From positions 1 to 48,637 of the IMG/VR virus record IMGVR_UViG_3300028920_000098: a stretch of 48,637 nucleotides of DNA. The stretch is one strand, 5' to 3'. Below the pieces are notes generated by a model that saw nothing but the letters and a program-made list of their open reading frames with translations, was not told the origin of the DNA and did no database searches. This stretch comes from a virus. This document shows, piece by piece, positions 3,795 to 47,586 of this stretch. The position numbers and the translations under genes were made by a program. The first letter of the stretch is position 1, and the number at the start of each line of letters is the position of its first letter.

Positions 3795-4064
3795 ATGGAG
3801 AAGAAAGAAGTGCTGTCTGGTTATGCGATTGTCGTGCTGGATCGCGGGTTTGTCTACGTTGGCGATGTGGAGGTGTCTGAGGACTGGTGCGTCATCTCGG
3901 GGGCTCGAAACATCCGCTATTGGGGTGTGACCAAGGGCCTCGGCGAGCTTGCGCAGAACGGTCCAACAGAGAAGACGAAGCTCGACACGGTGGGTACGGT
4001 GCGCGCCCCAATGCGTGCGGTAATTTCCGTCATAGACACGGAGGCAAGCAAGTGGAAGTGCTAG
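3795..4064 (+). CDS. DUF6948-like phage protein
   Basis: This 89-residue protein has a layout I recognise from a widespread phage family: an N-terminal beta strand with a Tyr/Val-rich segment, then ARNIRYWGVTKGLGELAQNG (about 36-55) and a strand-turn-strand end (VRAPMRAVISVID). It matches the DUF6948 pattern of an ARxLWYWSGA-like motif followed by ExxxxG. Function unknown. In other phages such genes can sit next to a Gly-rich repeat ORF, as here. The start has GAAAGGAGA upstream, and the C-terminus overlaps the repeat gene. Confidence 0.6.
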   Translation: MEKKEVLSGYAIVVLDRGFVYVGDVEVSEDWCVISGARNIRYWGVTKGLGELAQNGPTEKTKLDTVGTVRAPMRAVISVIDTEASKWKC

Positions 4065-4255
4065 AAATCACACTGGACGGTTCCGGTTCCGGTTCCGGTT
4101 ACGGTTACGGTTACGGTTACGGTGACGGTTACGGTTCCGGTTACGGTGACGGTTACGGTGACGGTGACGGTGACGGTGACGGTGACGGTTACGGTGACGG
4201 TGACGGTGACGGTTCCGGTTACGGTTACGGTGACGGTGACGGTTACGGTTCCTAA
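4052..4255 (+). CDS. Gly-Xaa hexanucleotide repeat protein
   Basis: The best start is GTG 4052, preceded by GGAGG at 4041-4045. It gives 67 residues: a nine-residue leader, then 29 uninterrupted Gly-Xaa units in which Xaa is only Ser, Tyr or Asp. Every Gly codon is GGT and every Xaa codon is TCC, TAC or GAC, so the DNA is a pure GGTNNC array. The stop follows the last unit directly. The product would be acidic, flexible and tyrosine-rich. It overlaps the preceding gene by 13 bases. Function unknown. Length could vary by six-base slippage without frameshift. The opposite strand is also open (poly Val-Thr), but that follows from the repeat. Confidence 0.6.
   Translation: MEVLEITLDGSGSGSGYGYGYGYGDGYGSGYGDGYGDGDGDGDGDGYGDGDGDGSGYGYGDGDGYGS
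4079..4252 (+). repeat. 29-copy GGTNNC hexanucleotide tandem array
   Basis: There are exactly 29 contiguous hexamers, each GGTTCC, GGTTAC or GGTGAC, with no interruption. Order is irregular: a Ser-type start, then a Tyr-rich block, a mixed block and a run of five Asp-type units. Only bases 4 and 5 of each hexamer vary. Such an array is prone to slipped-strand copy change in six-base steps. Confidence 0.95.
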
Positions 4256-4270
4256 GCATGAGTGGCTGAT

Positions 4271-4343
4271 GACCGAGGCGAAACCGGGAGACGAGCAGGC
4301 CGGTGCGGGTAACGGGATTAAGAAACCGCCGCGCGCCTCGGTC
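4271..4343. promoter_or_regulatory. Long-loop inverted repeat before a small gene
   Basis: GACCGAGGCG (4271-4280) and CGCCTCGGTC (4334-4343) are perfect 10-bp complements about 53 bases apart. They lie between the repeat gene and the AAGGAGAA ribosome site of the next gene (ATG 4359). No T-run follows, so an intrinsic terminator is unlikely. A translational or RNA-stability role is possible. Confidence 0.4.
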
Positions 4344-4873: not shown

Positions 4874-5309
4874 GCGAGTAATGATAACAGCCAAGATGCT
4901 GCGGGCAAAGGGTGCATACGCGGATCAGGTGGAGATATTTCGCAAGATGTGGCCAGGCGGCGCTACAGTCACCAAGGGCAACGCACTCAAGGCCGCCAAG
5001 CTGGGGCTGAATGACGAATGGTTTGCGAGGTATCTTCTACCCACCAAGCTGCATAACGAGTACGATGCCAAGCTCAAGCCCCTGGATGACGAGTACCTGG
5101 CCAAGCTCAAGCTCCTGGATGACGAGTACTGGGCCAAGCTCAAGCCCCTGGATGACGAGTACGATGCCAAACGCAAGCCCCTGGATGACGAGTACGATGC
5201 CAAGCGCGAGCCCCTGGATGACGAGTACGATGCCAAGCGCTGGCTCATCCTATACCCATTGTTGAGGCAGGCACTGAGCGGCCATGCAGAGGACGGGGAG
5301 GGGGAGTGA
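4866..5309 (+). CDS. Protein with 11-residue tandem repeats
   Basis: This 147-residue protein has a globular N-terminal part (residues 1-64, with ITAKMLRAKGAYADQ). Five near-identical 11-residue units (consensus EYDAKLKPLDD) and a partial sixth follow from about residue 65 to 125, then a short helical end. The units are charged and helix-forming, so an extended helical rod is likely. Function unknown. The C-terminal HAEDGEGE is encoded by the same DNA segment (AGGACGGGGAGGG) that serves as ribosome site for the next gene. Confidence 0.7.
   Translation: MPKRVMITAKMLRAKGAYADQVEIFRKMWPGGATVTKGNALKAAKLGLNDEWFARYLLPTKLHNEYDAKLKPLDDEYLAKLKLLDDEYWAKLKPLDDEYDAKRKPLDDEYDAKREPLDDEYDAKRWLILYPLLRQALSGHAEDGEGE
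5058..5240 (+). repeat. 33-bp tandem repeat, five copies plus a partial
   Basis: Units begin with GAGTAC at 5058, 5091, 5124, 5157, 5190 and 5223 (partial). They differ at a few positions (CTGGCC, TGGGCC or GATGCC after GAGTAC; AAGCTC, CGCAAG or CGCGAG later). Copies four and five are the most alike, which suggests recent expansion at the 3' side. All stay in frame. Confidence 0.92.
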
Positions 5310-10070: not shown

Positions 10071-10328
10071 ATGAAGATAGCTTCTGACAAAATAGCCCAT
10101 TTCGGTATCGGTTCACTCATCGCCACCTGCGCTGGGCTCGCCCTATCCCCAAGCCTCTCCGGATCGCTCGCTGGGGCATGTGGCGTCGTCATCGCTGCAG
10201 CCGCCGGCGCTCTCAAGGAAGCCAGAGACTACGGGACACGTAGCGGGCACGCTTCTCGTGCTGACTTCTGGGCCACGGCACTAGGTGGGTTGGCGGGGGG
10301 AATAGTGGTGGGGCTGGTCTGCCGCTAG
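10071..10328 (+). CDS. Small membrane protein, DUF2279/YfiM-like
   Basis: An 85-residue membrane protein with TTGGAGGA before the ATG. Two hydrophobic helices lie at about 11-50 (FGIGSLIATCAGLALS, then CGVVIAAAAGALKEARD) and a third at 66-84 (FWATALGGLAGGIVVGLV). The spaced pattern DKxxHF...KExxDY...DxxATxxGG is that of the YfiM/DUF2279 type of phage and bacterial membrane proteins. Function is not established; a link to lysis is possible but unproven. It ends in the plus-strand operon's last stop, which shares CTAG with the convergent recombinase stop. Confidence 0.65.
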   Translation: MKIASDKIAHFGIGSLIATCAGLALSPSLSGSLAGACGVVIAAAAGALKEARDYGTRSGHASRADFWATALGGLAGGIVVGLVCR

Positions 10329-11017
10329 TCGCCTTGCCTCTCCCGTCTCAATATCTTGGCCACCGTCTTGTGACTCCACTCCTCTGCCGATCGGGGAGGA
10401 TAGCCCAACAGGTCAAGCTCTACCGCAATCCCTCGGAAGCTCATGCCCTTCTCGCGCATCTCGACCATGATTTGGAGTATCTCCTGCTCCGGGAGGCACT
10501 CTACCATCCGGCTCGGGTCCTCCGGGTCCATCATCCAACCATACGGCAGCCGGTGGGACATCCGCCGCCGCTCTTTCTGGTATCTCTTCATGGCTCGGGA
10601 GGTCCGTACCGCCGTCAACTTCTTCTCGTACTCCCTGAACACGGCCAGCATCTTCCGCATGGCCTCCTGCTCCAGACTCGTGCCGTTGTCTTCCTCTGCG
10701 GCCTCAATCCTGGCCCCCGCCTTCTTGGCCTGCTCCTCGATATACAGGTGCAAATAGAGATCCCGGGCCAGACGGCTACGCCACCGCACAACAAGCACCA
10801 TGCCCCGACGTAGGGCGTCAACCGCCCCCCAGAGTCCGGGGCGCCCCGAGTCGTCGCCGCTGCAGTCAGGATCGGAAAACTCCAGGGGCTCGCTCGTTAC
10901 CTCGTAGCCAGCTTTCCGGCAGTATTCCCGGCAGATTTCCTCCTGTTTCTCGCAACTCGTACTCTCGTCCGCCCCGGGTCTCGGACTGAATCTCGTGTAG
11001 ATAATCGCCTTCGTCAC
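10325..11017 (-). CDS. Small serine recombinase (resolvase/invertase type)
   Basis: A 230-residue recombinase read from GTG 11017. The catalytic domain shows IYTRFSP with the nucleophile at Ser11, the CEKQEEICREYCRKAGYEV helix, and RWRSRLARD (about 78-86) with the expected arginines. The C-terminal part (MSHRLPYGWMMDPED, then MSFRGIAVELDLLGYP) resembles the start of the Recombinase DNA-binding domain. The zinc ribbon and coiled coil of large serine integrases are absent, and the length is less than half of theirs. It could integrate the phage, resolve multimers or invert a segment. No att site was identified. GGAGGCAGCAA precedes the start. Confidence 0.85.
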   Translation of the reverse strand: MTKAIIYTRFSPRPGADESTSCEKQEEICREYCRKAGYEVTSEPLEFSDPDCSGDDSGRPGLWGAVDALRRGMVLVVRWRSRLARDLYLHLYIEEQAKKAGARIEAAEEDNGTSLEQEAMRKMLAVFREYEKKLTAVRTSRAMKRYQKERRRMSHRLPYGWMMDPEDPSRMVECLPEQEILQIMVEMREKGMSFRGIAVELDLLGYPPRSAEEWSHKTVAKILRRERQGD

Positions 11018-13944: not shown

Positions 13945-13952
13945 ATTCTATC

Positions 13953-13970
13953 TTCTCAAATAGTCTCAAA
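13953..13970 (-). promoter_or_regulatory. Tandem TTTGAGA-type boxes upstream of the reverse promoter
   Basis: On the minus strand, TTTGAGAC (13970-13963) and TTTGAGAA (13960-13953) are spaced ten bases apart, one helical turn, immediately before the -35. The same word occurs several times in front of the HTH gene at 44835. They look like binding sites for a common regulator. Confidence 0.45.
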
Positions 13971-14749
13971 TTCCGACAAGAGCCAATGTTTGCAGGGGTT
14001 TTCTCACACCCGGAAACACGGAGAAAACCCCGGAGAAACCCACACCAGAGAAACAGAGAACCGGCGCTACTCCACTAACAGAGAAACACGGAGAAGAGAA
14101 AAGAGAAACCAGAGAGAAACACGGGAAGGGGGGAACCTACGGAGGGGGGATGGGGAATACCATCCTACAACTCCTATACAGGTCTGGTAGGGCACTGGCT
14201 CAGAATGATCCAGAGAAACACGGAGTAACTATGAGGCGGAGAGAAGAGAGTAGAGAAGAACAACAGAGAAAGAGTAGAGAAAGGTCGGAGAAGGGACGGG
14301 AGGAGAGAAAGCCCAGAGAGAGAGAAGAGAGAAGCAGGGAAAGCAGGACGGGTATCCCCGATCCTCAGAGAGTATGGGCGCGTGCGTTTCATGCCCATTT
14401 GTCATGCAACTGTTAGTATGATACGAATCGTACCATAGGTGGGACTATGGGAGACCCTTGCTCCCGGGGCACCGAATCCCCCTGGGGCTATGAGGGCTGC
14501 TGTAGGGGCCACAAGGGGCACATAGGCAGGGCCTGGTGAGGCTTTGCCAGGGCTTTGCTGCGGGTTTGCCAGGGCTTCTGAGGGGCCGGGTGTGTAGGGG
14601 GCCCCATGCCTTGTCTCTGGATTCTTTGCCACGCTGGGGGGCCTTTTACGCCTCTCCATACAGAGTTAACCCTGCATCTCCGAGTCGCCGATTTTCTCTC
14701 TTCCCTTGATGGGGGGTCGTGGTATATTGTGGGAGATGGGGAGGTTGAT
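13971..14749. other. Gene-free control region between divergent operons
   Basis: This stretch of about 780 bases has no gene I can support. It holds the iteron-like repeats, a long A/G-rich tract (about 14220-14340), a possible plus-strand promoter (TTGTCA at 14399-14404 with TACGAA at 14422-14427, 17-base spacer), an 11-base palindrome TACGAATCGTA (14422-14432), a small inverted repeat CCATAG/CTATGG (14433-14450), and two copies of TTTGCCAGGGCTT near 14543 and 14565. An open frame at 14150-14416 is low-complexity Arg/Glu and not convincing. Confidence 0.6.
14011..14223 (+). repeat. Iteron-like GAGAAACACGG repeats
   Basis: Three perfect copies of the 11-mer GAGAAACACGG lie at 14081-14091, 14114-14124 and 14213-14223, with a near copy (CGGAAACACGG) at 14011-14021. 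They sit in a purine-rich, gene-free region between divergent operons. The arrangement could be initiator or regulator binding sites. No AT-rich unwinding element stands out. Confidence 0.55.
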
Positions 14750-17077: not shown

Positions 17078-18967
17078 GTGGATAGCAAGCGGTTCCCGCA
17101 CTACCACATCGTACCGAGGGATCTCGAGGCGAATCTCCGATGGCGCCGGGAGGTAATCCAGAAGGCCGCCGAGGACGAAGGGTTTGCCAAGAATCTCTGG
17201 GAGATGTGTGAAGAGGACCCGCTGTTCTACATCAACGCCTTGGTGTGGACGTACAACCCGAAGGACAACGCGACACACCCGAAGGTCCCGTTCATTACCT
17301 ACGAGTACCAAGACGAAGCCATAGCGAAAATCCTGACCGCGATCGAGAAGGGCTATGACGTAGCTTGGCCGAAGTCAAGGACGATGGGCGCTTCCTGGAT
17401 GGCCATTACGGTCTTCGAGTACCTCTGGCACTTCAAGGCCGATATGTCACTCCTGGTGGTCTCCAGGGTCCAGAATCTCGTGGATATGAAGGGCAACACC
17501 GACTCGCTGTTCTGGAAGATCGACTTCATCCACGAGAATCAGCCTGCGTGGTTGCTGCCGAAACGGATCGAGCGCAAGCTCCTGATGATCGAGAATGTTG
17601 ATCTGAAGTCCGTGATCTCGGGCGAGTCCACTACGGCCAATCTCGGCCGAGGCGGAAGGCGTACCGCGATCCTGATCGACGAATTTGCGGCGTTCGGGGT
17701 CAACGACGGATACGAGGCCCTGAAGGCGGTCAGGGACACGACCAAGTGCCGAGTGTTCAACAGCACCCCTCAGGGCTCCACAAACGCGTTCTACGAGGTC
17801 GTACACAAGACCAGTGCAGAGGTCTACCGGATGCACTGGACGAAGCATCCGGGCTATTCTGCGGGCCTCTACACGTCTGAGAAAGTCAACGGCAAGTGGG
17901 AGCTCCGAATCCTGGACGAAGAGTTCCGGGGAGTGGTGGACGTCCGGAGAGCCGACAAGGCCCTATGCGGGCACTACATCTACCCGGAGGAGTACCCGTT
18001 CATCCTGGACGGCAAGATGCGGAGTCCCTGGTATGACAACGAGTGTGCCAGGTGTGTGTCGCCGCAGGAGATCGCGCAGGAGCTCGATATCGACTTCTTG
18101 GGCTCCAGCTACCAGTACTTCGACGCGCAGTTCATCGGGCTGCTGATCCAGGAGTACTGTATGCCGCCGATGCTACGCGGTCGGCTGATATACGAGCCCG
18201 GAACCCTGGAGCCGATATGCTTCGAGCTGGACGAGAAGGGGCCTTTGGTTCTCTGGTTCAACGTGTCGGGGAGCGGGGACCGGCTGCGTGGCCGGGAGTT
18301 CTTCGCCGGGAAGCGGTTCGCGGTTGGCTCTGACGTATCTCACGGAACCGGGGCATCGAATTCGGTGAGCTCCGTTGTGGATCTCGGTACCGGCAAGAAG
18401 GTGGCCAGATGGAAAGACCCATTCACGCTGCCTGAGAGGTTCTGCGACGAGACGGTAGCTTTGGCCAAGTGGTTCAACAGCGCCACGATGATCTGGGACG
18501 CATCGGGACCTACGGGCAAGAGATTCACCAAGAGGCTGATAGACGGGAAGTACCGGAAAATCTACTACCGCCGCGAGGAGAACAAGATTCGTAAGCGGAT
18601 TTCAAAGGAGCCAGGGTACTTCCTCAATCCAGAGGACACGTCCGTACTCCTGGGTGACTACCGGGAGAAGCTCTCCGACCGGACCTTCATCAACCCTTCC
18701 GAAGAGGGGATGGAGGAGTGTCTCCGGTTCATCGTACAGCCGGGCGGGAAGGTGGAGCACAGCGCCGCAGCCAACAGCCAGGACCCCACCGGAGCGAGAG
18801 AAGCTCACGGTGACGAAGTGATCGCGGATGCCCTGTCGAGTCGACTCTTGGCGATCAGGCCGAAGGAGATCGAGCAAAAGCCGGTCAAGATCCCGTACAT
18901 GAGCATGGCCTGGCGACTGGAGCAGGACAGGCTCATGCGAGAAGAGTCCGAAAGAGAGGACTGGTAA
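17078..18967 (+). CDS. terL: Terminase large subunit
   Basis: The 629-residue packaging motor, acting at the portal to translocate and cut DNA. The ATPase domain has a Walker A-like loop PKSRTMGAS (98-106), Walker B ILIDEF (about 198-203) and the coupling motif FNSTPQGS (about 227-234). The nuclease domain starts near AVGSDVSHG (about 415-423) with a catalytic Asp, and continues through IWDASGPTGKRF. The family is recognisable, but the Walker A variant differs from the usual GxxxxGKT, as in many phage terminases. The start is GTG 17078, two bases after the previous stop. It ends in a TAATG overlap with the next ORF. Confidence 0.93.
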   Translation: MDSKRFPHYHIVPRDLEANLRWRREVIQKAAEDEGFAKNLWEMCEEDPLFYINALVWTYNPKDNATHPKVPFITYEYQDEAIAKILTAIEKGYDVAWPKSRTMGASWMAITVFEYLWHFKADMSLLVVSRVQNLVDMKGNTDSLFWKIDFIHENQPAWLLPKRIERKLLMIENVDLKSVISGESTTANLGRGGRRTAILIDEFAAFGVNDGYEALKAVRDTTKCRVFNSTPQGSTNAFYEVVHKTSAEVYRMHWTKHPGYSAGLYTSEKVNGKWELRILDEEFRGVVDVRRADKALCGHYIYPEEYPFILDGKMRSPWYDNECARCVSPQEIAQELDIDFLGSSYQYFDAQFIGLLIQEYCMPPMLRGRLIYEPGTLEPICFELDEKGPLVLWFNVSGSGDRLRGREFFAGKRFAVGSDVSHGTGASNSVSSVVDLGTGKKVARWKDPFTLPERFCDETVALAKWFNSATMIWDASGPTGKRFTKRLIDGKYRKIYYRREENKIRKRISKEPGYFLNPEDTSVLLGDYREKLSDRTFINPSEEGMEECLRFIVQPGGKVEHSAAANSQDPTGAREAHGDEVIADALSSRLLAIRPKEIEQKPVKIPYMSMAWRLEQDRLMREESEREDW

Positions 18968-22332: not shown

Positions 22333-23376
22333 ATGGGTCAGGTACTTACTCCTGAAAATATGCCTGATGCCGTTATCGCCACTCTGAACAGGCTCAACAA
22401 GGGCAAGTGGATTGGCGAGATGACGGATCTTCAGGAGCACGTTCTTTTTAACCAGATGTGCCGTATGAAGCGCGAGAAGATCAACTCGGGCCGTGGGGTC
22501 ACGGTTCGCTACATCATGGATCATAACCACAGCGCCCAGGTTGTAGGGTTGTTCAACTCGACGGACTTCTCTCGCGACGATGCGATGGTCGAAGGAACTG
22601 TGCCGTGGACATACATGGACGGGAATATGGTGTACGACGAGCGTGAGCCGGACATGAACGCAGGGCCGGAGCAAGTTGTCGATCTGGTCGACGCCGAGAA
22701 CTCTCGGATGTTGACCTCGATGGTTGAACTGGCCGAAGAAAAGTCGTTGGGTATTCCAGACAGCGAGGACGACAACGACACGCCGTTCGGACTCAAATAC
22801 TGGGTCACGAAGAACTCAAGCCTTGGGTTCAACGGTGGGAATCCGACAGGCTTCTCGAGTGGTCGTGCCGGGGTCTCCAGTGGCACCTATACACGGCACA
22901 AGAACTACACTGGTGCATATACGAGCGTTGGGGATACGGACGACACCGGCCTCGTGTACCAGATGGAGAAGGCTGCAGCCATGACCCGCTGGGTACCACC
23001 GGCACCGGAGCCTGGAATGGGTCGTAGCGGTTTTTCGCGATCCATCTATACGAACTGGGACACGATGTACGACCTGAAGAACGTGGCGAAAAGCAACAAC
23101 GACAGCCTCGGATTCGATTTGGCTACGAAGGAGCCGGTCTTCCGTGGTGCTGGAATTACCCACGTGCCGAAGATGGATACTGAGAGCGACAATCCGCTCT
23201 ACATGCTGGACCACAATCACATCTACGCGATATTCCTCAGAAATTGGTTTATGAAGAGGATCAAGGTGCAGCGTTTGTCGAATCAGGTGCATTGCTTCGC
23301 CGTAGTTGTGTCGATGGTATGGAACATAGTTTGTGACGATCTTCGTCGTCAGGCAGTGTTCTATGATGCCAGCTAA
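22333..23376 (+). CDS. Major capsid protein candidate
   Basis: A 347-residue protein after the scaffold, of normal size for an HK97-fold capsid subunit. Features include an N-terminal helical arm (NMPDAVIATLNRLNKGKWIG), a Gly/Asn/Ser-rich loop (SSLGFNGGNPTGFSSGRAG, about 163-181) that may be the E-loop or a surface insertion, and a C-terminal beta-rich domain. Identification is by order; no motif alone proves the fold. A GC-rich hairpin terminator follows, which would raise or isolate capsid expression. Confidence 0.78.
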   Translation: MGQVLTPENMPDAVIATLNRLNKGKWIGEMTDLQEHVLFNQMCRMKREKINSGRGVTVRYIMDHNHSAQVVGLFNSTDFSRDDAMVEGTVPWTYMDGNMVYDEREPDMNAGPEQVVDLVDAENSRMLTSMVELAEEKSLGIPDSEDDNDTPFGLKYWVTKNSSLGFNGGNPTGFSSGRAGVSSGTYTRHKNYTGAYTSVGDTDDTGLVYQMEKAAAMTRWVPPAPEPGMGRSGFSRSIYTNWDTMYDLKNVAKSNNDSLGFDLATKEPVFRGAGITHVPKMDTESDNPLYMLDHNHIYAIFLRNWFMKRIKVQRLSNQVHCFAVVVSMVWNIVCDDLRRQAVFYDAS

Positions 23377-23412
23377 GGACGTTGGCATGTCATTCGTCTG
23401 CCGGGGTGTGGG

Positions 23413-23433
23413 GCCCCATGGTGGGGCTTCTTA
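23413..23433 (+). terminator. Hairpin terminator after the capsid gene
   Basis: GCCCC (23413-23417) and GGGGC (23423-23427) form a stem, possibly extended by flanking G and C, followed by a T-rich stretch (TTCTTACTTT). It is a weak to moderate intrinsic terminator. Confidence 0.45.
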
Positions 23434-30979: not shown

Positions 30980-30992
30980 GTCTAGGGTTGTT

Positions 30993-31034
30993 GGGGAGGG
31001 GGGCACGGGGCTCCCCTCCCTGTCTTTGGTTTTT
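30993..31034 (+). terminator. Rho-independent terminator
   Basis: GGGAGGGG (30994-31001) pairs with CCCCTCCC (31013-31020), followed by TGTCTTTGGTTTTT. A strong GC stem with a T-rich tail separates the appendage gene from the tail genes. Confidence 0.7.
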
Positions 31035-37022: not shown

Positions 37023-38273
37023 ATGGCTATCAAGGTGAAACACGGAGCGCCTGCCGCGGTGATGCTTGGGCGATATGCTGCGGGTTACGCTGCACAACAG
37101 AAGAAGGCGCAACTTCCGGCGCTGCAGGCGATGGAAGCACGGAAGGCCCGTGAGGGTGAGCGCGAATTCCGTCGGGAGATGACGGAGGAGCAGCGTGCCT
37201 TCCAGCGACAGATGACTGGTGAGGGCAGAGAGTACCAAGCGGAGCAGGCCGAACTTGCACACGAGAGGCGGCTTGAGGCGCAGGCTTTTGGCGCAGAGCT
37301 TGAGTCTGACCAGTACGAGTATCGCCTTACGGCACAGCAGAAGGCCAAGCAGGAGCAGCTTGCCAACATACTTGACGACATAGAGAACAATCTGGACATG
37401 AGGCCGGAAGAGAAAAGACAAGCCGCCGAGATCGCCAGGGAGCGGTTCGGCTATATCACTCCCCGCAGGTTTCGCAAAGAGCCCAAGCCTGACCTGGGGC
37501 AGCTCTGGGGCAAAGAGATCTTCACGCACGAGGGGAGAAAGTACTGGCGGAACAAAGAGACGGGTGAGTGGAAAGAGGTTGACGGCAGAGACAACATGAC
37601 GCAGCGCTGGAAGATAGCAATCGAGGCAGCCAGGGATCCGGACACGGGTGAGGTCAACATGAAGACGGCCAAGGAGATTGTCGCCATGATGGGTGGCGGT
37701 GGCGCTGGGGTTCCTGGCGCAGATGACATCTCCCCGGACATGCCCGGTCGCGGCCTGGAGAGAGTGCCGGGCCTTGGCATAGGGGCTGGAGTGGCACCGG
37801 ATATGGCGACGCTGCCACAGATGACCGATGAATCGCAGAACCTTGACGGTGAGGAGAGGGCTGTTGGGGCGAGAGGGAGGTCGGCTAGGACTGGCCGATT
37901 TGCCCCGACCGAGCTGCAGGCAGTTGAGAAATCGCTGGCAAGGGTTCAGGGGACAGCTCCCGGTGGAGATCCACGCCAGTTTGAAGCACTGAATGTGGAA
38001 GATATTCAGGATCTTGCCACAGCCCAAACACAATTAGACATAGCCCAACAGGAGGCGAGGGACTGGAAGAAGGAAATGGCCGATTACGCAGAAGAGACAA
38101 GACTCTTCCCAGACATCCAGCGCGGTCTTAAAGAAAGAGAAGCGAGGATGAGGGACCGAGAAAGGGCGATTCAGGAGAGGATGAAGGAATTGCGGAGATT
38201 CCGCGACATGCTAGAAGCTCGCAGGGACGTTCTCCAGGTGGCTAAGATGCGAATGGGAGAGGGGAGTAGATAA
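37023..38273 (+). CDS. Internal virion (ejection) protein candidate
   Basis: A 416-residue protein with extreme helical charge. An N-terminal Ala/Gly-rich helix (AAVMLGRYAAGYAAQQKKAQ) runs into a long coiled coil (REFRREMTEEQRAFQRQMTG, about 47-120). A Gly-rich segment (MMGGGGAGVPGADD) sits near 220, and another coiled coil ends the protein (EARMRDRERAIQERMKELRR). It lies directly before the giant injected protein and is coupled to it (TAATG). Such proteins are packaged and ejected with the DNA. Family not identified. Confidence 0.65.
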   Translation: MAIKVKHGAPAAVMLGRYAAGYAAQQKKAQLPALQAMEARKAREGEREFRREMTEEQRAFQRQMTGEGREYQAEQAELAHERRLEAQAFGAELESDQYEYRLTAQQKAKQEQLANILDDIENNLDMRPEEKRQAAEIARERFGYITPRRFRKEPKPDLGQLWGKEIFTHEGRKYWRNKETGEWKEVDGRDNMTQRWKIAIEAARDPDTGEVNMKTAKEIVAMMGGGGAGVPGADDISPDMPGRGLERVPGLGIGAGVAPDMATLPQMTDESQNLDGEERAVGARGRSARTGRFAPTELQAVEKSLARVQGTAPGGDPRQFEALNVEDIQDLATAQTQLDIAQQEARDWKKEMADYAEETRLFPDIQRGLKEREARMRDRERAIQERMKELRRFRDMLEARRDVLQVAKMRMGEGSR

Positions 38274-41200
38274 TGCCTTCGGTCGGATATCGAAAGCCGT
38301 CCCCCGCAATGATGGACGAATATCTCCGAATGGGGGTCCGCGATCCGGCAATAATTCTCGGCGTGAAGAATGAGTGGACGCAGGCAGAGAAGGAAGAATG
38401 GGCCAACACGTTTCGCTCAGAGATACGGCCTGCAGAGCAGCGAGCCAGGGATGAGGATCGTAGAAGGCGGCAGGCTTACCGAGAGCAAGTTCGATTGGCA
38501 GCGGAGGCGAGAGCCGTTGGCGAACGTCCTGTTCTGGCCAGAGACATAGCGCAAGGCATTAGGGGGGGGGTGGCCGACATAGCATCACTTACAGCAAGGC
38601 CGTTTGCTCCCGATGCTGCCGATATGGTTACGAGAACAATGCAGAGGGAGGAGCAGGCTCACGCGATCGCAGAGAAAGGAGGCGTAATCCCTGATATTCT
38701 TCAGAGGGGGCTGCGCGGAGCTACGAGATCCTTGACTCAGGCTAGCTTGCTTAGCCCGCTGGGGCCATACGGGATTATCGCTGGCTTCGGGCTGTCGCGA
38801 GGGAATCAAGCCATAACGGAAGCGAACGATGCTGGGCTGACCGGCAAGAAGAAATGGGGATACGTTGGCCGTGCAGCGGCGATTGAGGGTGGGATTGCTG
38901 CGGCATTCCAACTCGTAGGTGCTGGTGGTCTTGAGAAAGTCTTAGGCGGGGGGCAACAACTCACCCGAGCCGGATTGAAGGAAGTATTGAAGCAGACGGG
39001 GGTCGCAATGCTGCAAGAACTCCCGGAAGAGAATCTGACCGAGATCCTAGACCAGTACAACCAGGCCGCAGCCGGATTAGGGGAAGGCGTGACCTGGGAA
39101 AGCGCGCTGGACATAATAAAGAACACGACGATACAGACGGCAATGGCTGTTGGCTTTGCCAGTGGATACCGTGGTATAGGGGCACAAGAGGCGCTTCGAA
39201 ACCAGGATGCGTTAGCCAAAGATCTGGCCCAGTCATTCGGGATCCCAGAGGCTCGCGTGAGAGAGGCAATACAGAATTCGGCAAAGGCGAAGGACTTCGA
39301 TGCTGCGCTGGGCAGGAAACTGGAGGAAGAGTCGCTGAAGGCCGACCTCGGGGTGGCACTTTGGGCCAGAAGGAACCGGGAGCAGGCAGGCGAATTGCGG
39401 GATATCGAGGCACCGAGCCGCAAGGATTTCACCAGCCGTGGTCTACCGGCCCTCCAGAATGCCACTGAGAGGCGCCAGTTCGTCGATAGGCTGCGAGAAA
39501 TTGCTGAAGCTACAGAGACACCCCCGGAGGAGATCCCCGCTCCAGAGGCCGTACAGGAGCCCACAGGGGCCGCTCCAGAGGAAGTCGTACAGGAGCCCAC
39601 AGAGGGTGTCGAGAGACGTGTGGATCTGGCTTTCCGCAAGCGGGTTGAAGAAATGACCCCAGAAGAGAGAAAAGTCGCCCTTTTGACTTCCGAGCGTGTT
39701 CCAGGAATGCCGAACAAGCGGGCTTGGGACGAAGGCGAAACCAATGGGGTGCATCACGTAAGCGGCGATGAATTCCAACAGCGTAACGAAGTTCGCGACG
39801 ATTTTGGGTCATACGATATTGACGATTTCAAGACCGAGATCAACGATAAGCTGGGGCATGAAGCCGGTAACAAGATAATCGAGTTCGTCGGAAATGCCTT
39901 GGCTGAAGCGCAGACTGAGAGTACAGTTGAGACGGCAGAGGCAGCGAGGAAGATACTCGCAGAAACGAAAGCCGAAGTCGTTGATACTGAGGGAAAGGTA
40001 CACTCCCTAACGATAGGATTCAGCTATGGCGCAGGAAAAACCGAAGGAGAAGCAGAAGCAGCCCTCCAGCGTGACAAGAGGCAGCGTAAACTTCTCGGTG
40101 AACGTCGAGGGGCAAGAGATGTCCCTGGGGGAGTATTGGGAGAAGGCGAAGCCCGGGGCCAAGTTGATGATCGACGGGAAGTTGATCGCGGAGAAGAAGT
40201 AGAAGTCCCACCAGCAGTTACCACCGAGACCGTATCGCAAGCCTTCCCCGGTAGCACTGTCGAAGCGAGACCAGAGGCCGATGGCTGGAGCGTAACGCTA
40301 CCCGACGGCCGCAATGTCGAGGTACGTGCCGAAGCAGACATACCGGTCGATGTCTCCGCAGTCATGCGAGCCTACGATATCTCCGAGGCTGAGGCCCAGG
40401 AGATGGCTCGGGCTGGGGTCGCCGGCGCGGTGATACCGCCAGGCGTCAGCATGGAGCTCTCAGACGGTCGAGTTATCACCCCATCAGAGATCACGGTCCT
40501 CATAGACCCCAAGAACGCGAACGAGAGAACGATCCGGCATGAAGCCCTGCACGTTGCCAGGCAGCTAGGGCTATTCGAGACCAAGGAAGGTCGTCGGATA
40601 TGGGAATCGTTGGAAGAGGAGTACGGAACCGAGGAGGGGATTGCAGAGGCTAGGGAGGAATGGGACAAACCAGAGGGCCTTTGGCCAAGGATCCGACAGT
40701 TCTTCCAGAGGCTATTCTCGCGGTTTGGGATTCAACTAGATCCCGAGGCTGCCGTTGCGGAGACATTCTCAGAACGGTTTTGGGGTCAAGCGGCAGAGGC
40801 GGCTGGGCGTGAGCCGCAGTACAGCCTGGTAGGTGAGCGCCTCGAGGACGAGCAGCGACCGGAGCCTATCGCCACCACGAGCATCAAGAACGAGGTAGTC
40901 AACGAGCTCCGGCGCCTCCGGGGCCAGGGTGAGCTCGAGGGTGTGGATCCTGAGAGTCAGCAGGAGTGGTTGAACGCCGCAAGCGATACTCTCTCTAGCG
41001 ATCCGGCAGCGGGGGAACGCTTGGTCAATGAGCTAATCAAGGTAGCGCGGAACCTGAGTGATCGGGAAGTGGCAGTCCTACAGATGTACTACCGCTCCGC
41101 AAACAACGAATTCGAACGCCTCTCCGATGAGCTCTTCGAGGCCACCAAGGCTGGCGACGAGACAAAGGCTGCCACAGCCCAGGCCGCCGTCATAGAGCAG

Positions 41201-44200
41201 ATGGCTATCCTTGGAAAGATCGAAGAAGCGACCAAGGCTGCGGGAAGGGAGTGGGGCCGAGCAGGTGTGGCCCGTCAGATTTCTCTGGCGAAGGACTTCT
41301 CTCTCGCCGGCATGGTGCGTAGGGCCAGGGTTGCGAAAGGCGGCCAGGAGCTTACTACGGACGAACATGCCCAGATATCCAAGATGGCACGTCAGATCAA
41401 GGATCTGGAGAAACGACTGGCCCAGAAGTCGGCACAGATCGACGACGTTGACCGAAAGGCCACGATCGACAAGCAGCTTGAGCAGGACGTAGCACAGTCC
41501 AAGAAGCGTCGAGTCTACAAGAAGAAGCAGAAGCTCGAGACCAGACAGAAAGACGCTCTAGCGAAGGTCAGGACCGCCTGGGAGGCCCTTGGAAACTCCT
41601 TTGTCGAGAAGCCGGGACCGCCGCCGCCTGGGGTCCGTTACCAGATAGCCAGGGAGGGAGCGCCTGCCGCAGCTCCCGAGCCGGTAGCCGCTTCTAAGGA
41701 ATTGGGTACTGCCGCTGCCGAGATGGCACAGGTGTACGTGGACATGGGGGTGACAAACTTCCGTGAGTTCTGGTCGATCGCCAGACAGTACCTTGGGCAG
41801 AACGCGGTGCAGGCCGAGGCTGTATTCCGTTCAGCATGGGATACGGCTTCCGAGGCAGCCGGGCCAGGGCCGGAATTGGATATGGTGGATGTGACTGGGA
41901 TCAGCCGCGAAGCCAGGCAAATCCAGCGACGGCTTGTAGAAGCTGGGCTGCGCGATCGAGACCAGATTGTCGACATCGTACACGCCTCACTCCAGGATTC
42001 ATTGCCAGAGCTGACCCGAAGACAGGCGATGGACGCCCTCAGCATGTACGGGCAGTTCTCTCCCCTCTCCAAGGAAGAAGTAGATCAGGTCGTGCGGGAC
42101 ATCAACGGGCAACTCCAGCAACTTGCCAAGCTCAAGGATATGGAGGCTGGGGAGGCCCCGAAGAAGACCGGTAGAGAGCGGCGAACACCAAGCGAGGAAG
42201 AGCGGCATCTCATCCAGCAGGTCAACGAGGCCAAGAAGCGCGGCGGCTTTGAGGTTACGGATCCAGAGACCCAGCTACGGTCGGCGCTGGATGCTGCGAA
42301 GAGAGCAACCAGGAACCGCATTGCTGACCTGGCTTGGGAGATAGAGAAGCGGGAACGGATCGTCCGGAAGACATCAGAGCTCGAGGCTGACTCGGAGCTG
42401 AAGGCTCTACGTGCCGAGCGTGACGCACTTCTCGAAGCCCATAGGGAGATATTCCCACCGAAGAAGAAGCCTCTCACACGGGAACAGCGGATCGCTGCTG
42501 CGAATAGGGCTCTCGACCGTGCCATAACCGATCTGGAGAAGCGCCTGGGAGAAGGGGACATTTCCCCGAAAGCTAAGCCTGCACCACTCTCCACGCCCGA
42601 GCTAAACGCCAAGCGAGCTAGGCTGGGGGCCCTCCGGGCACAGCGGGACGCGTTACGTGCTGCGGCGAACCCGAAGATGACCCCAGAGGAGAGAGCGCGT
42701 CGAGCCTACGAGTCGAATCTGAAGCGGCGTATAGCCGACTACCAAGAGCGAATTGCCCAGAAAGAGTTCCAGCCGAGAAAGAAGGAGCCCCGGCAGCTCT
42801 CCGCGTCTGAGCTGAGACTCAAGCGGCGCCTGGAGGACGTAAAGAGCCAATTCTACGAGGCGGCAGCCAAGTGGCACCTGGAGAATCTAAGCCCAATCGG
42901 GAGGGCAGGGGACATCCTGAGAGAGACGGCCCACCTATCTCGTGCCGCAATGACCGCTATTGACCTTTCGGGCGTGCTTCGCCAGGGCGCACTGGCCGTC
43001 TACTCACACCCAATGTTGGCGAAAAAGGCTGCTGCAGAGATGATGAAAGCTCTCGTGAGCAAGCAAGCAGAGTTCAATTCTGCCGAGAGGATCCGTAACG
43101 ACCCCCTGGGGCAGTTTGCTGAGACCGCCGGCTTGAGCATTACCAGCGACGATGGGCCAATTAGCCGCCAAGAAGAGGCATTTATGGGGCGATGGGCCAA
43201 GAAAGTGCCAGGGATCGCAGCCAGCGGGCGAGCATACACGACATTCCTAAACAATATGCGATTCGGGCTATTCAAGCTCATGGTCGACAAGCTCGGGAGG
43301 TCTGGACAAGTTACGCTTGACGAGGCGAAGGTAATCGCAAAATACATCAATGTCGCAACCGGACGGTCATCTAACTTCAGGATTTTCGGGCTATCTGCCG
43401 CAGATGTAAACACGGTATTCTTTGCGCCACGATATGTGGCCTCGCGATTCCAGTATCTCGCCATGCCGTTCTACCTGCCCTTTATGAAGACCTCCTTGCG
43501 GGTCAAGAAGGCCATAGCTGCAGAGTACGCTCGGACATTCTCTGGTGCGGCCGTATTCATTGGCTCCCTCATGGCATTGGGGTACTTGGCAGCAGATGAT
43601 GACGATGATGAACCAGTCTTTGAGACCGACCCACGCTCAGCCAACTTTCTGAAGATTAGAATCGGAGAGACCCGAATCGACCCAATGGGGGGACTGTCTC
43701 AAACGATTGTCGTCGCTGCCCGGATCGCGCCTAGATTTTTGGGCGGCGGGAGAATCAAGACGGCTGAGGGAAAAATCAAGGAGTTGGGGGAGAAGGGGCA
43801 GAAGTACAAGCCAACTACACGATGGACAATCGCAGGCCGATTCCTACGCACGAAGCTCGCTCCGGTTCCCGGGGCAGGCGTGACCGCATTGAACGACATG
43901 ATAAATGTGGTCGGAGAGAAGGAGACAATGGCCTCTCTCAGCGGCCAGCTATTCCTGCCTCTGTCTCTGCGCGATGTCAAGGACAGTATGCAGGCCCACG
44001 GCGTAGCCAAGGGTACGGCAGTCTCCATCCTTGCCATTTTCGGGGCTGGAGTACAGACCTACGGGCCCAAGACGAGCTACCTGGACGCCACGGGGGAGGA
44101 GCGCGAGAAGATATTCAAGCGGGACCTGAAGCAGATCATGTGGGACGATCCGCCCCTGGCCTATAGTGAGTTCCTGGATGCCGAGCAACTGAAGAAGGTC

Positions 44201-44482
44201 GACGAGGCTAGGCGTTACGACGTCGGCAAGCTCATCACAGCGGCCACGGACAACGAGCCCACGAAGAAGGGGAAGACCGCGGAGGAGTACGAGGAAGCCG
44301 TCAAGAAGTGGACGAATGCTCGCACCAACGCCCTAAAGAGACTCTCTGGTGCCCGAGAGGAGCAGGCCATCGACGACTTCCGACTCTACTGGCGGAAGAA
44401 GCAAGGCTACAAGGTTGGCAGCGAGGCATGGCAGGCCCGCTTTCGCGCCCTGAAGAAACTCGGCCTCAAGAAGACGAAGTAA
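38273..44482 (+). CDS. Giant injected polyvalent protein with HEALH and GGDEF-like segments
   Basis: A 2069-residue protein. Residues about 160-230 are hydrophobic and Gly-rich (IIAGFGLSRGNQAI, AAIEGGIAAAFQLVGAGG) and may insert in membranes. Residues about 460-610 have GGDEF-like pieces out of usual order: GMPNKRAWDE, then SGDEF (about 496), then YDIDDFKTEINDKLGHEAG (about 514). RHEALHVARQLG (about 755-766) is a zincin HExxH motif. Coiled coils follow (about 990-1540). The C-terminal 500 residues resemble large polyvalent-protein associated domains. It would be packaged, injected and act on the host or DNA at entry. The site around 585-643 hosts a nested ORF. Confidence 0.75.
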   Translation: MPSVGYRKPSPAMMDEYLRMGVRDPAIILGVKNEWTQAEKEEWANTFRSEIRPAEQRARDEDRRRRQAYREQVRLAAEARAVGERPVLARDIAQGIRGGVADIASLTARPFAPDAADMVTRTMQREEQAHAIAEKGGVIPDILQRGLRGATRSLTQASLLSPLGPYGIIAGFGLSRGNQAITEANDAGLTGKKKWGYVGRAAAIEGGIAAAFQLVGAGGLEKVLGGGQQLTRAGLKEVLKQTGVAMLQELPEENLTEILDQYNQAAAGLGEGVTWESALDIIKNTTIQTAMAVGFASGYRGIGAQEALRNQDALAKDLAQSFGIPEARVREAIQNSAKAKDFDAALGRKLEEESLKADLGVALWARRNREQAGELRDIEAPSRKDFTSRGLPALQNATERRQFVDRLREIAEATETPPEEIPAPEAVQEPTGAAPEEVVQEPTEGVERRVDLAFRKRVEEMTPEERKVALLTSERVPGMPNKRAWDEGETNGVHHVSGDEFQQRNEVRDDFGSYDIDDFKTEINDKLGHEAGNKIIEFVGNALAEAQTESTVETAEAARKILAETKAEVVDTEGKVHSLTIGFSYGAGKTEGEAEAALQRDKRQRKLLGERRGARDVPGGVLGEGEARGQVDDRREVDRGEEVEVPPAVTTETVSQAFPGSTVEARPEADGWSVTLPDGRNVEVRAEADIPVDVSAVMRAYDISEAEAQEMARAGVAGAVIPPGVSMELSDGRVITPSEITVLIDPKNANERTIRHEALHVARQLGLFETKEGRRIWESLEEEYGTEEGIAEAREEWDKPEGLWPRIRQFFQRLFSRFGIQLDPEAAVAETFSERFWGQAAEAAGREPQYSLVGERLEDEQRPEPIATTSIKNEVVNELRRLRGQGELEGVDPESQQEWLNAASDTLSSDPAAGERLVNELIKVARNLSDREVAVLQMYYRSANNEFERLSDELFEATKAGDETKAATAQAAVIEQMAILGKIEEATKAAGREWGRAGVARQISLAKDFSLAGMVRRARVAKGGQELTTDEHAQISKMARQIKDLEKRLAQKSAQIDDVDRKATIDKQLEQDVAQSKKRRVYKKKQKLETRQKDALAKVRTAWEALGNSFVEKPGPPPPGVRYQIAREGAPAAAPEPVAASKELGTAAAEMAQVYVDMGVTNFREFWSIARQYLGQNAVQAEAVFRSAWDTASEAAGPGPELDMVDVTGISREARQIQRRLVEAGLRDRDQIVDIVHASLQDSLPELTRRQAMDALSMYGQFSPLSKEEVDQVVRDINGQLQQLAKLKDMEAGEAPKKTGRERRTPSEEERHLIQQVNEAKKRGGFEVTDPETQLRSALDAAKRATRNRIADLAWEIEKRERIVRKTSELEADSELKALRAERDALLEAHREIFPPKKKPLTREQRIAAANRALDRAITDLEKRLGEGDISPKAKPAPLSTPELNAKRARLGALRAQRDALRAAANPKMTPEERARRAYESNLKRRIADYQERIAQKEFQPRKKEPRQLSASELRLKRRLEDVKSQFYEAAAKWHLENLSPIGRAGDILRETAHLSRAAMTAIDLSGVLRQGALAVYSHPMLAKKAAAEMMKALVSKQAEFNSAERIRNDPLGQFAETAGLSITSDDGPISRQEEAFMGRWAKKVPGIAASGRAYTTFLNNMRFGLFKLMVDKLGRSGQVTLDEAKVIAKYINVATGRSSNFRIFGLSAADVNTVFFAPRYVASRFQYLAMPFYLPFMKTSLRVKKAIAAEYARTFSGAAVFIGSLMALGYLAADDDDDEPVFETDPRSANFLKIRIGETRIDPMGGLSQTIVVAARIAPRFLGGGRIKTAEGKIKELGEKGQKYKPTTRWTIAGRFLRTKLAPVPGAGVTALNDMINVVGEKETMASLSGQLFLPLSLRDVKDSMQAHGVAKGTAVSILAIFGAGVQTYGPKTSYLDATGEEREKIFKRDLKQIMWDDPPLAYSEFLDAEQLKKVDEARRYDVGKLITAATDNEPTKKGKTAEEYEEAVKKWTNARTNALKRLSGAREEQAIDDFRLYWRKKQGYKVGSEAWQARFRALKKLGLKKTK
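40026..40202 (+). CDS. Nested 58-residue ORF within the polyvalent gene
   Basis: An ATG at 40026, with AGGA eight bases upstream, opens a 58-codon frame (+1) inside the giant gene. The product has balanced composition: a Lys/Gln-rich start (AQEKPKEKQKQPSSV), then RGSVNFSVNVEGQEMSLGEY and a KLMIDGKLIAEKK end. In the main frame the same DNA codes an Arg/Gly-rich linker (GERRGARDVPGG and onward), which is what one expects of an overprinted region. It may be an expressed small protein or a remnant of a captured gene. Confidence 0.45.
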   Translation: MAQEKPKEKQKQPSSVTRGSVNFSVNVEGQEMSLGEYWEKAKPGAKLMIDGKLIAEKK

Positions 44483-44676
44483 TTCCACCGAATTACTTCG
44501 CGCAATTACTTCGCATATCGTGGAGAACGTGGAGGGTCGGCCTAATTAGGTGGAGATGCTGATATCGCCGCGGATGGGCCGATTCTCGGCATTCCTAAAT
44601 TCGGAGATTAGGAAAACTCTCCACGGAGCGTAGAGGGTTTGTAGCGAAGCGAAGTAATTCCACGCAATTGTTTCGC
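44475..44676. ncRNA. Nested inverted-repeat element after the giant gene
   Basis: GAATTACTTCGC (44490-44501) pairs perfectly with GCGAAGTAATTC (44649-44660). Inside, CGTGGAGA (44519-44526) pairs with TCTCCACG (44618-44625), enclosing hairpins GCCGA/TCGGC (44578-44590) and TTCCTAA/TTAGGAA (44592-44614) and a palindrome CCTAATTAGG (44541-44550). The 5' arm can instead pair locally with CGAAGTAATTC (44475-44485), which contains the giant gene's stop codon. Two exclusive folds are therefore possible. Candidates are a non-coding RNA, a replication origin or a processing/termination element. Confidence 0.45.
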
Positions 44677-44737
44677 ACGGAGACCCCTATAGTAGAGTGG
44701 GGAGCTGACAGGGGTGTTAGACGGGGTGCCAAGTAGT

Positions 44738-44820
44738 TTGAGACTCCATTCTCAATTTTGTAATTGACAGGCTTTGAGAATAGGAGTACCTTCCCTACAG
44801 ATGGTTCTCAAAGATTCTCA
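44738..44820. promoter_or_regulatory. Cluster of TTTGAGA-type boxes before the HTH gene
   Basis: Boxes are TTTGAGACT (44738-44746), ATTCTCAAT (44748-44756), CTTTGAGAAT (44772-44781), GTTCTCAAAG (44804-44813) and GATTCTCAGG (44813-44822), in both orientations. The two boxes at 13953-13970 have the same core. A plausible regulator is the HTH protein encoded just downstream, but this is not shown. Confidence 0.45.
44764..44792 (+). promoter_or_regulatory. Candidate promoter of the right-hand early operon
   Basis: A consensus -35, TTGACA (44764-44769), is followed after 17 bases by TACCTT (44787-44792), a poor -10. A TTTGAGA-type box lies in the spacer, so binding there would block polymerase. 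The HTH gene starts at 44835. Confidence 0.38.
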
Positions 44821-44834
44821 GGAAAGGGGCCAGC

Positions 44835-45077
44835 ATGGCCGAGGACAGTAGCAACCTCGTGACGGTCGAGGAGCTGGCGAAGATGGTGCGGAAGTCGGTG
44901 CCGACGATCTACCGCCACCTGAAGTACGGGGTCCCGAAGAAGCAGAGCAGAGGGCTGTCCATTGACGTGGGGCAGCTACCTGACGTCTGGGTGGGCGGCA
45001 ACCGGTTCTGGTACAGGTCTGCGGTAGAGAAGCTGATCGAGGAAGCGAAGGAAGCCAGGGAGGCCATGCGTGAGTGA
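44835..45077 (+). CDS. Small helix-turn-helix protein (MerR/excisionase-like)
   Basis: Eighty residues with GGAAAGGGGCCAGC before the ATG. Residues 8-30 (LVTVEELAKMVRKSVPTIYR) form a winged helix-turn-helix of the excisionase/helix_turn_helix_17 kind, with RHLKYGVPKK as the wing. The GGNRFWYRSAVEKLIEEAKE part is also typical of that fold. It may regulate the early operon, auto-regulate through upstream boxes, or be a recombination directionality factor for the recombinase. The evidence does not separate these. Confidence 0.75.
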   Translation: MAEDSSNLVTVEELAKMVRKSVPTIYRHLKYGVPKKQSRGLSIDVGQLPDVWVGGNRFWYRSAVEKLIEEAKEAREAMRE

Positions 45078-45855: not shown

Positions 45856-46613
45856 AGGCAAACGACAAAGTTCTGTACCTGGGTCAGCCAGGAACCATCT
45901 TGTGCGAGCTCCCAGAGGGAACCTGCCTGGTCGAGGTCGACGGCTGGGAGGACGAAGAGGGGTACTCAGAGGGGATTCGGGTGATCGCATCTCGCCACGA
46001 CGTTGCCCCGATAGGAACCAATCCCTTTGCCAAATATCACGAAAAGGGACGGGCGCTCAGGGAGCAACTCTGCGACCTACGGGCACAGATCCGTGAGGCG
46101 GTAAAGTTGCGCGATGACGCCAGGGCTGGCATCCAGGCTCGTGCCGGGGAAAGGGTGGCCCTGCAGCGAGTCCTAGACTATCTGGACGGGAAGCTCACCT
46201 GGGCCCTGGAGTTAGGCTACAGGATGCAGATTGTCCGCGTCGAGGACTTGCGGTGCCAATGCAACCCCAGAGACCTGAAGCTCATTTCTCTGTTCGGCGA
46301 CTCCAACGGAGACCTGAATTTCCGCGTCGGTCACTACAGCGATGGATCGGGGATGGGAAGCCACGAGATAGAGTTGTTCCCGAGCAAGGAAGATGCGATC
46401 CAGCGTGCCAGGGAGGCCGTTGATGAAGTGCTCGCAGACGATATAAAGCGGCTCTGTGCCGATGCGCTAATCGAGGAGTACGGCTTCGATTCCGCCCTGA
46501 TCCGTGAGCACAAGAAGTTTGTGGCGGAACGGAAGGCAGAGGAAGGCCGTGCCCGCATAGCCCTGCTGCAGAAGGAAATCGACCAGTTGAAGGCGGAGGC
46601 CACCAATGCCTGA
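45852..46613 (+). CDS. Unknown protein upstream of the recombination genes
   Basis: A 253-residue protein from ATG 45852 (overlap ATGA). It has a small beta domain at the front (NDKVLYLGQPGTILCELPEG), then a helical coiled region (LREQLCDLRAQIREAVKLRD), a Cys pair (LRCQCNPRD), and a long coiled end (about 190-250; RKAEEGRARIALLQKEIDQL). Domain content is not recognised. Being coupled to the nuclease gene, it may be an accessory of the recombination pair. Confidence 0.62.
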   Translation: MKANDKVLYLGQPGTILCELPEGTCLVEVDGWEDEEGYSEGIRVIASRHDVAPIGTNPFAKYHEKGRALREQLCDLRAQIREAVKLRDDARAGIQARAGERVALQRVLDYLDGKLTWALELGYRMQIVRVEDLRCQCNPRDLKLISLFGDSNGDLNFRVGHYSDGSGMGSHEIELFPSKEDAIQRAREAVDEVLADDIKRLCADALIEEYGFDSALIREHKKFVAERKAEEGRARIALLQKEIDQLKAEATNA

Positions 46614-47586
46614 CATAGGCGACATAGAGGCTATCAAGATCCGCCGGCCATTCGGTATGTCCACGACGGGGGGCTCTGGATTCCCTGTGGGTCGAGTGCT
46701 TGAATGCCCCAGGAAGGCCGCCCTGACGCTCCTGGGCGTTCGTATGAAGCGACTGGGTGCTCCCCTATGGTTCGGGACCCTAATCCACGAGAACGCATTC
46801 AGGCCCTATACAGAGCCGGAAGAGGTCAAGGACCTGGCTGCAGAGACGGAGAAGGACATACGGAACGCTGCCGAGTCCGAGAAGATGATTCGAACGGAGA
46901 CTGCTCCGGACGGGACCGAGACGGAGTTTGTGCAGGATCTCGAGGTTAGCGACGAGGACAGGGAGAAGCTGCCAAAGATAGCCAAGCTCCAGATGGAGGT
47001 CTGGGACAACGAGAGATACGCCCAGAGCGAGATTGAGGCAGTAGAGCAGAAGGCTCGTAGCGATCTTGTGGACCCTGACAGTGGGAAAGTGGAGGGAATA
47101 GCCGACGGGGTGCGAGTTGCTGGCAGGATGGACCTGCTCCTGGTCAGGGATGAGAACGAGCAGGTGCCCGTGAGGGACCTGAAAACGGCCAAGGCTGCGC
47201 TGAAGCAGGAGTGGTTCCTGAATCTCGGGTATTACCGGCAGCTATCCACGTATCGGTATCTGTTGGCGGCTGGGGCAGGGGAGATGACGGACAATGTGGC
47301 CTGCTTCCAGCTTACGAAGCACATGACGAAGGAGAGCATCCAGAAGTACGCTGGGGAGATTCATATCAGACCGATGCCCTATAGGCGCGTCTACGACGAG
47401 TTCATGCTGGCCTGGGAGAGGCTCCTGGAGTGCGAGAGGCATAAATACTGGCCGATGAATCCCACGGCCTGTGAGGGGAAATACGGGCCCTGCATGTTCC
47501 TCCCCCTGTGTTGGGCAGAGGAGTTTGACGACAGTGACGAGTGGAAGAAGACCTTGAGGATAAGAGAGGAGATGTCTCATGGGTGA
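46606..47586 (+). CDS. Cas4/RecB-like PD-(D/E)XK exonuclease
   Basis: A 326-residue nuclease. The PD-(D/E)XK core shows GRMDLLLV with Asp176 and VRDLKTAK with Asp191 and Lys193, and a QLSTYRYLLA helix follows. One Cys near the front (ECPRKAAL, Cys34) and three near the end (CEGKYGPCMFLPLC, Cys289, 296 and 302) match the Fe-S cluster arrangement of Cas4 and AddB nucleases. It overlaps bet by eight bases. By analogy with Red exo plus Bet, it would make single-stranded ends for annealing. No CRISPR genes are nearby, so adaptation is not implied. Confidence 0.82.
   Translation: MPDIGDIEAIKIRRPFGMSTTGGSGFPVGRVLECPRKAALTLLGVRMKRLGAPLWFGTLIHENAFRPYTEPEEVKDLAAETEKDIRNAAESEKMIRTETAPDGTETEFVQDLEVSDEDREKLPKIAKLQMEVWDNERYAQSEIEAVEQKARSDLVDPDSGKVEGIADGVRVAGRMDLLLVRDENEQVPVRDLKTAKAALKQEWFLNLGYYRQLSTYRYLLAAGAGEMTDNVACFQLTKHMTKESIQKYAGEIHIRPMPYRRVYDEFMLAWERLLECERHKYWPMNPTACEGKYGPCMFLPLCWAEEFDDSDEWKKTLRIREEMSHG

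Follow-up and report, generated by a model that had tools for sequence, protein, structure and literature searches.

A duplicated-hairpin element at the end of a phage late operon, possibly the 3′ end of the late transcript

Across 13 bacterial genomes analysed by sequence and RNA-seq, hairpin clusters near stop codons were described as the commoner inferred intrinsic termination unit, and such units were reported without regard to a U-tract (PMC8355165). Stem-loops at gene 3′ ends are also known from Borrelia plasmids, where transposase-free IS605 structures are kept at the RNA level through G-U pairs (PMC2775950). The window analysed here, a stretch of 48,637 nucleotides (positions 1 to 48,637 of IMG/VR record IMGVR_UViG_3300028920_000098), carries a cluster of inverted repeats at 44475-44676. 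This element resembles the hairpin-cluster units, in which hairpins less than 15 bases apart lie at the stop codon that closes the final gene of an operon and no U-tract is needed (PMC8355165): its left hairpin includes a stop codon, its + strand minimum-energy fold strings together helices that are close or nested, and it likewise has no U-tract. Unlike those units, it is larger (~200 bases), it contains a three-way junction and a duplicated hairpin, and its terminating activity is presumed. It shares with canonical intrinsic terminators a stable hairpin just past the stop codon, but not a + strand U-tract. Like the free-standing IS605-type stem-loops (PMC2775950) and REP sequences, it places near-identical hairpins at a gene 3′ end, with G-U pairs on the RNA strand; unlike them, it is single copy, comes with no transposase, and belongs to no family found elsewhere.

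The first 154 bases of the window are repeated at its end with one mismatch, and the record is therefore very probably a complete phage genome of about 48,483 bases (~48.48 kb), circular or circularly permuted. All main operons but one lie on the + strand. Relatives of the terminase are found in many viral contigs (35-52% identity) and also in contigs from genomes of Phycisphaerae and Planctomycetota that were assembled from metagenomes (44-53% identity), which suggests Phycisphaerae/Planctomycetota as the host group. The following genes provide the framework for the locus:

514-1359: DnaD-like loader
1143-2702: DnaB-like helicase
10325-11017, − strand: serine recombinase, ~230 aa, within the minus-strand block
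16.3-19.0 kb: terminase genes
17078-18967: terminase large subunit
22333-23376: major head protein candidate
38273-44482, + strand: giant gene of 2,069 codons, the last and largest of the late operon, with its TAA stop at 44480-44482
44835-45077, + strand: HTH protein of 80 aa, the first gene past the gap, assigned on weak matches below curated cut-offs
46606-47586: PD-(D/E)XK nuclease
from 47579: Bet-like annealing protein

Tandem arrays of 12-base GGTTACGGTGAC-type and 33-base CTGGATGACGAGTACGATGCCAAGC-type repeats lie inside open reading frames at 4052-4279 and 5016-5271. The serine recombinase has a similar length in relatives (open frames of 243 codons in contig L058 and 232 codons in L056), where its gene stands upstream of the terminase genes; a sequence comparison of the protein with the PDB gave no match.

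The element begins two codons before the stop of the giant gene and comprises the following parts, listed here with the sites that come next:

44475-44501, + strand: left hairpin of 11 perfect bp, CGAAGTAATTC-CACC-GAATTACTTCG, z −7.9, overlapping the TAA stop of the giant gene
44501-44514, + strand: third, half copy of the hairpin arm, GCAATTACTTCGC, after the left hairpin
44515-44627, + strand: central three-way junction of 113 bases, closed by the 8-bp stem 44519-44526/44618-44625
44649-44676, + strand: right hairpin, a near-copy of the left one in direct orientation
44490-44660: alternative perfect 12-bp long-range stem, with arms 44490-44501 and 44649-44660
44737-44812: four operator-like TTTGAGAAT-type half sites (at most 1 mismatch) at 44737, 44748(−), 44773 and 44804(−)

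The first-pass annotation of this DNA had described inverted repeats at 44475-44676 in which a perfect 12-bp long-range stem encloses an 8-bp stem and two hairpins. All of these are present at exactly those coordinates, the 8-bp stem being perfect (CGTGGAGA/TCTCCACG) and the two hairpins being the inner hairpins of the three-way junction. The same arm can also pair with the stop region of the giant gene, as had been stated: 44490-44500 pairs perfectly with 44475-44485 over 11 bp that contain the TAA. The duplicated hairpin and the half copy had gone unmentioned. The ends of the element are two direct copies of one 26-27 base hairpin (44475-44501 and 44650-44676) that are 85% identical, reading CGAAGTAATT-CCACCG-AATTACTTCG on the left and CGAAGTAATT-CCACGC-AATTGTTTCG on the right, and because the repeated arms can each pair with every other arm, many alternative pairings arise. 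Two differences in the right-hairpin stem (AC to GT) result in G-U pairs on the + strand and in A-C mismatches on the − strand. The gap is free of genes, as had also been claimed, with only short frames of 15-45 codons that bear no sign of being genes, though strong structure there is not unique in the genome.

The amount of structure is far above chance. The element holds eight exact inverted 10-mers, where shuffled sequence averages 0.03; a count of eight was reached in 0 of 2,000 shuffles. Folding with shuffled controls, the check that the first-pass annotation had proposed, gives a stability excess on both strands (RNA fold z of −5.42 on + and −4.94 on −, 0 of 200 shuffles each), and the single-strand DNA fold has a z of −3.93. 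The element also holds the genome's only hairpin with perfect arms of at least 9 bp and a loop of at most 8. Both the centre (44515-44627; z −5.42 on + vs −3.55 on −) and the right hairpin (z −2.42 vs −1.19) fold better on the + strand, a bias that leans modestly towards RNA of that strand, the strand of the giant-gene transcript; the evidence is modest because the two adjacent stem changes may be one event.

The element is nevertheless one among several strongly structured places in the genome and not far ahead of them. In an internal yardstick, a + strand scan of the window every 100 bases with 20 shuffles each, it came third (z −3.8, in an off-register frame), behind 401 (−6.95, with few shuffles) and 23701, and in about 500 kb of related contigs and window there are further 202-base segments with at least 3 exact inverted 10-mers, both in gaps and inside genes. 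The gap 242-513 before the DnaD-like gene folds with a z of −5.05. Two crossing 12-base inverted repeats are found in this gap, 386-397/452-463 (one mismatch) and 422-433/489-500 (perfect); lying at 386-500, just 5′ of the DnaD-like gene (514), they could form a pseudoknot-like or mutually exclusive leader.

Folded alone, the 202 bases reach −81.2 kcal/mol with the local hairpin and −80.2 kcal/mol with the 12-bp long stem (1.0 apart), while a third fold, with 44504-44514/44649-44659, reaches −81.1 kcal/mol; the 12-bp stem has a P of 0.18 in isolation. Once 35-158 flanking bases are included, P is 0.99 (44440-44834) or 0.97 (44380-44700) for the local left hairpin and drops to about 0.00 for each of the long-range stems on the + strand. 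The switch between two exclusive folds that had been proposed for this locus is thus not borne out: by the energy model, which is the sole basis of this comparison, the two folds are not both populated. Their near-equal energies are a by-product of the repeated arms, and the local left hairpin would also form first during transcription. The − strand favours a different long-range pairing, 44504-44514/44649-44659, which can coexist with the left hairpin. When a ribosome stops at 44480, part of the left hairpin would lie beneath it, and it is conceivable, if highly improbable, that a ribosome finishing the giant gene holds this hairpin open while the freed arm forms the 12-bp stem closing the domain; read-through into the early operon would then depend on late translation.

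With the late operon on one side and the operator/promoter-like region of the early operon on the other, the element occupies the boundary of late and early transcription units, where a transcript end is expected. The operator-like half sites surround a TTGACA hexamer at 44764, and we infer that 44737-44812 is the operator region of an early operon opening with the HTH-like gene; a promoter scan with fixed thresholds found no promoter here. Two closely spaced sites of the TTTGAGAAT type are also present at 13952-13970, in a second promoter-like region that precedes the minus-strand block, and one repressor perhaps controls both this block and the early operon.

We tentatively favour, at somewhat less than an even chance, the reading of the element as an RNA hairpin cluster at the 3′ end of the late transcript, acting as a terminator, an insulator or a protector of the mRNA end. 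The giant last gene would end inside the first hairpin, after which RNA polymerase would make a stable three-way junction and then the second hairpin copy; together the hairpins would delay or halt transcription and shield the 3′ end of the mRNA, and late transcription would be kept out of the operator/promoter region and the early operon, starting ~60-160 bases further on. We infer that the element is transcribed and that the late mRNA is ended, insulated or protected by it. That the element starts two codons ahead of the TAA closing the late operon's final gene is consistent with this proposal, as are the structure far above chance, the better + strand folding of its centre and right hairpin, the G-U pairs that the right-hairpin arm differences form on the + strand, and the operator-like sites and HTH gene opening the early operon that come next. 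On the other side, no terminator-type hairpin with a U-tract was matched on the + strand in 44475-44834, and no U-tract follows any + strand hairpin of the element, unlike at other gene ends of this phage (23376 and 30979), which are followed by T-rich-tailed hairpins (23410-23430 and 30992-31022, respectively); within the element, only the − strand has a T-tailed hairpin, a single one at 44635-44619. The z of the whole element is also similar on both strands, as a DNA-level inverted repeat gives, and the element is not conserved in the relatives G001 and G011.

A structured, possibly regulatory RNA, as suggested by the first-pass annotation for this gene-free gap, finds support: the excess of structure and the + strand lean of the centre and right hairpin agree with it, while its switchable component is not supported. 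That the element was not explained by known features was too strong a statement, since hairpin clusters just past operon-end stop codons have been described (PMC8355165). If the transcript-end reading is correct, a phage of a poorly studied group would keep its late and early transcription units apart with no need of a canonical U-tract terminator, which would be useful for annotating such phages and not surprising, the most likely role being an ordinary one.

Among the alternatives, the foremost, though unlikely, is that these are functionless inverted repeats produced by template switching or slippage in replication or phage recombination. Half copies and the microinversion-like AC to GT arm difference fit such events, the phage encodes its own exonuclease and annealing proteins, and the element is not conserved in relatives; yet the centre, which is not repeat-derived, is likewise structured far beyond chance, with the + strand giving the better fold. 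Absence from G001 and G011 would also accord with a non-autonomous IS200/IS605-like or REP-like remnant inserted where the giant gene ends, its two direct-orientation hairpins ~150 bases apart being recognised single-stranded by a host Y1 transposase, an origin that we regard as decidedly unlikely. Near-identical direct hairpins do flank an unrelated centre, so that hairpins stand at both ends, and the stem-loops at gene 3′ ends of Borrelia plasmids offer a parallel (PMC2775950). However, the element occurs as a single copy in a genome with neither a Y1 transposase nor TnpB (PF01797 and PF07282 gave no match). Searches with exact patterns found no copy of the hairpin among viral contigs or the collected genomes, and chance-level matches in 392 genomes of Planctomycetota, a tentative host group. 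REP elements carry a GTAG mark, which is present here only before the right hairpin and is not counted as support.

Small serine recombinase sites have the size and layout of the dyads in the element, and these might serve as DNA targets of the serine recombinase that the phage itself encodes (10325-11017, −) or of some other dimeric protein, which we consider improbable. As in crossover sites of the res/hix type, the element has a pair of 26-bp dyads whose half sites measure 12 bp and whose central dinucleotide, AC, is identical, both in direct orientation, and the enzyme gene is present and conserved in relatives. Unlike such sites, which usually adjoin the gene, the element lies ~14 kb from it round the circle, and no accessory sites are evident; no comparable pair was found in a related Phycisphaerae contig carrying the recombinase gene, and the three-way junction is left unexplained. 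Very unlikely is a separate + strand small RNA, or an RNA that switches pairings once the terminating ribosome clears the stop codon: the two pairings are near-equal in energy in isolation and the structure has a + strand bias, but the long-range pairing has a P of about 0 in context, no Rfam match appears even at E 5, and no promoter-like site was found. Scarcely credible is a replication origin at the element, an earlier suggestion that is not borne out despite the strong single-strand DNA fold (z −3.93): the detrended GC-skew minimum is at 14,089, with iteron-like AGAGAAACACGGAG (GA) repeats at 14.0-14.35 kb and no iterons at 44.5 kb. The maturation (packaging) site also suggested earlier is not supported by position, the terminase genes being at 16.3-19.0 kb. 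The gene-free gap at 14000-14350, with its AGAGAAACACGGAG repeats at the skew minimum, is itself a candidate replication origin.

The absence of the element from relatives was judged in the two with a readable gene end. The giant protein of G001 has 61% identity over 697 aa to ORF 38273-44482, and its gene ends in a short C-rich/G-rich hairpin; that of G011 is 37% identical, and an opposite-strand frame follows the gene end. The best terminase relative is 52-53% identical, and no relative is close enough for covariation of the fold. Rfam covariance models gave no hit at the gathering score in the window and none up to E 5 in 44380-44900, and there is no tRNA or tmRNA. Retron or diversity-generating retroelement RNA finds no reverse transcriptase gene in the genome (no PF00078 match). 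BLAST returned just one 33-base chance match among phages, inside a tape-measure gene, and none among plasmids. The hairpin pattern, searched for exactly so that divergent copies could escape, was absent from genome contigs, was weakly matched in four of the 392 Planctomycetota genomes, as chance would predict, and had one match in viral contigs, L054:1-110, which we judged an unrelated chance match, adjoining by sequence a group II intron-like domain (domain V). Two related viral contigs share an operator-like palindrome, TTGGTTCGCGAACCAA, which occurs twice in L021:7701-7850 and again in L027:726-770.
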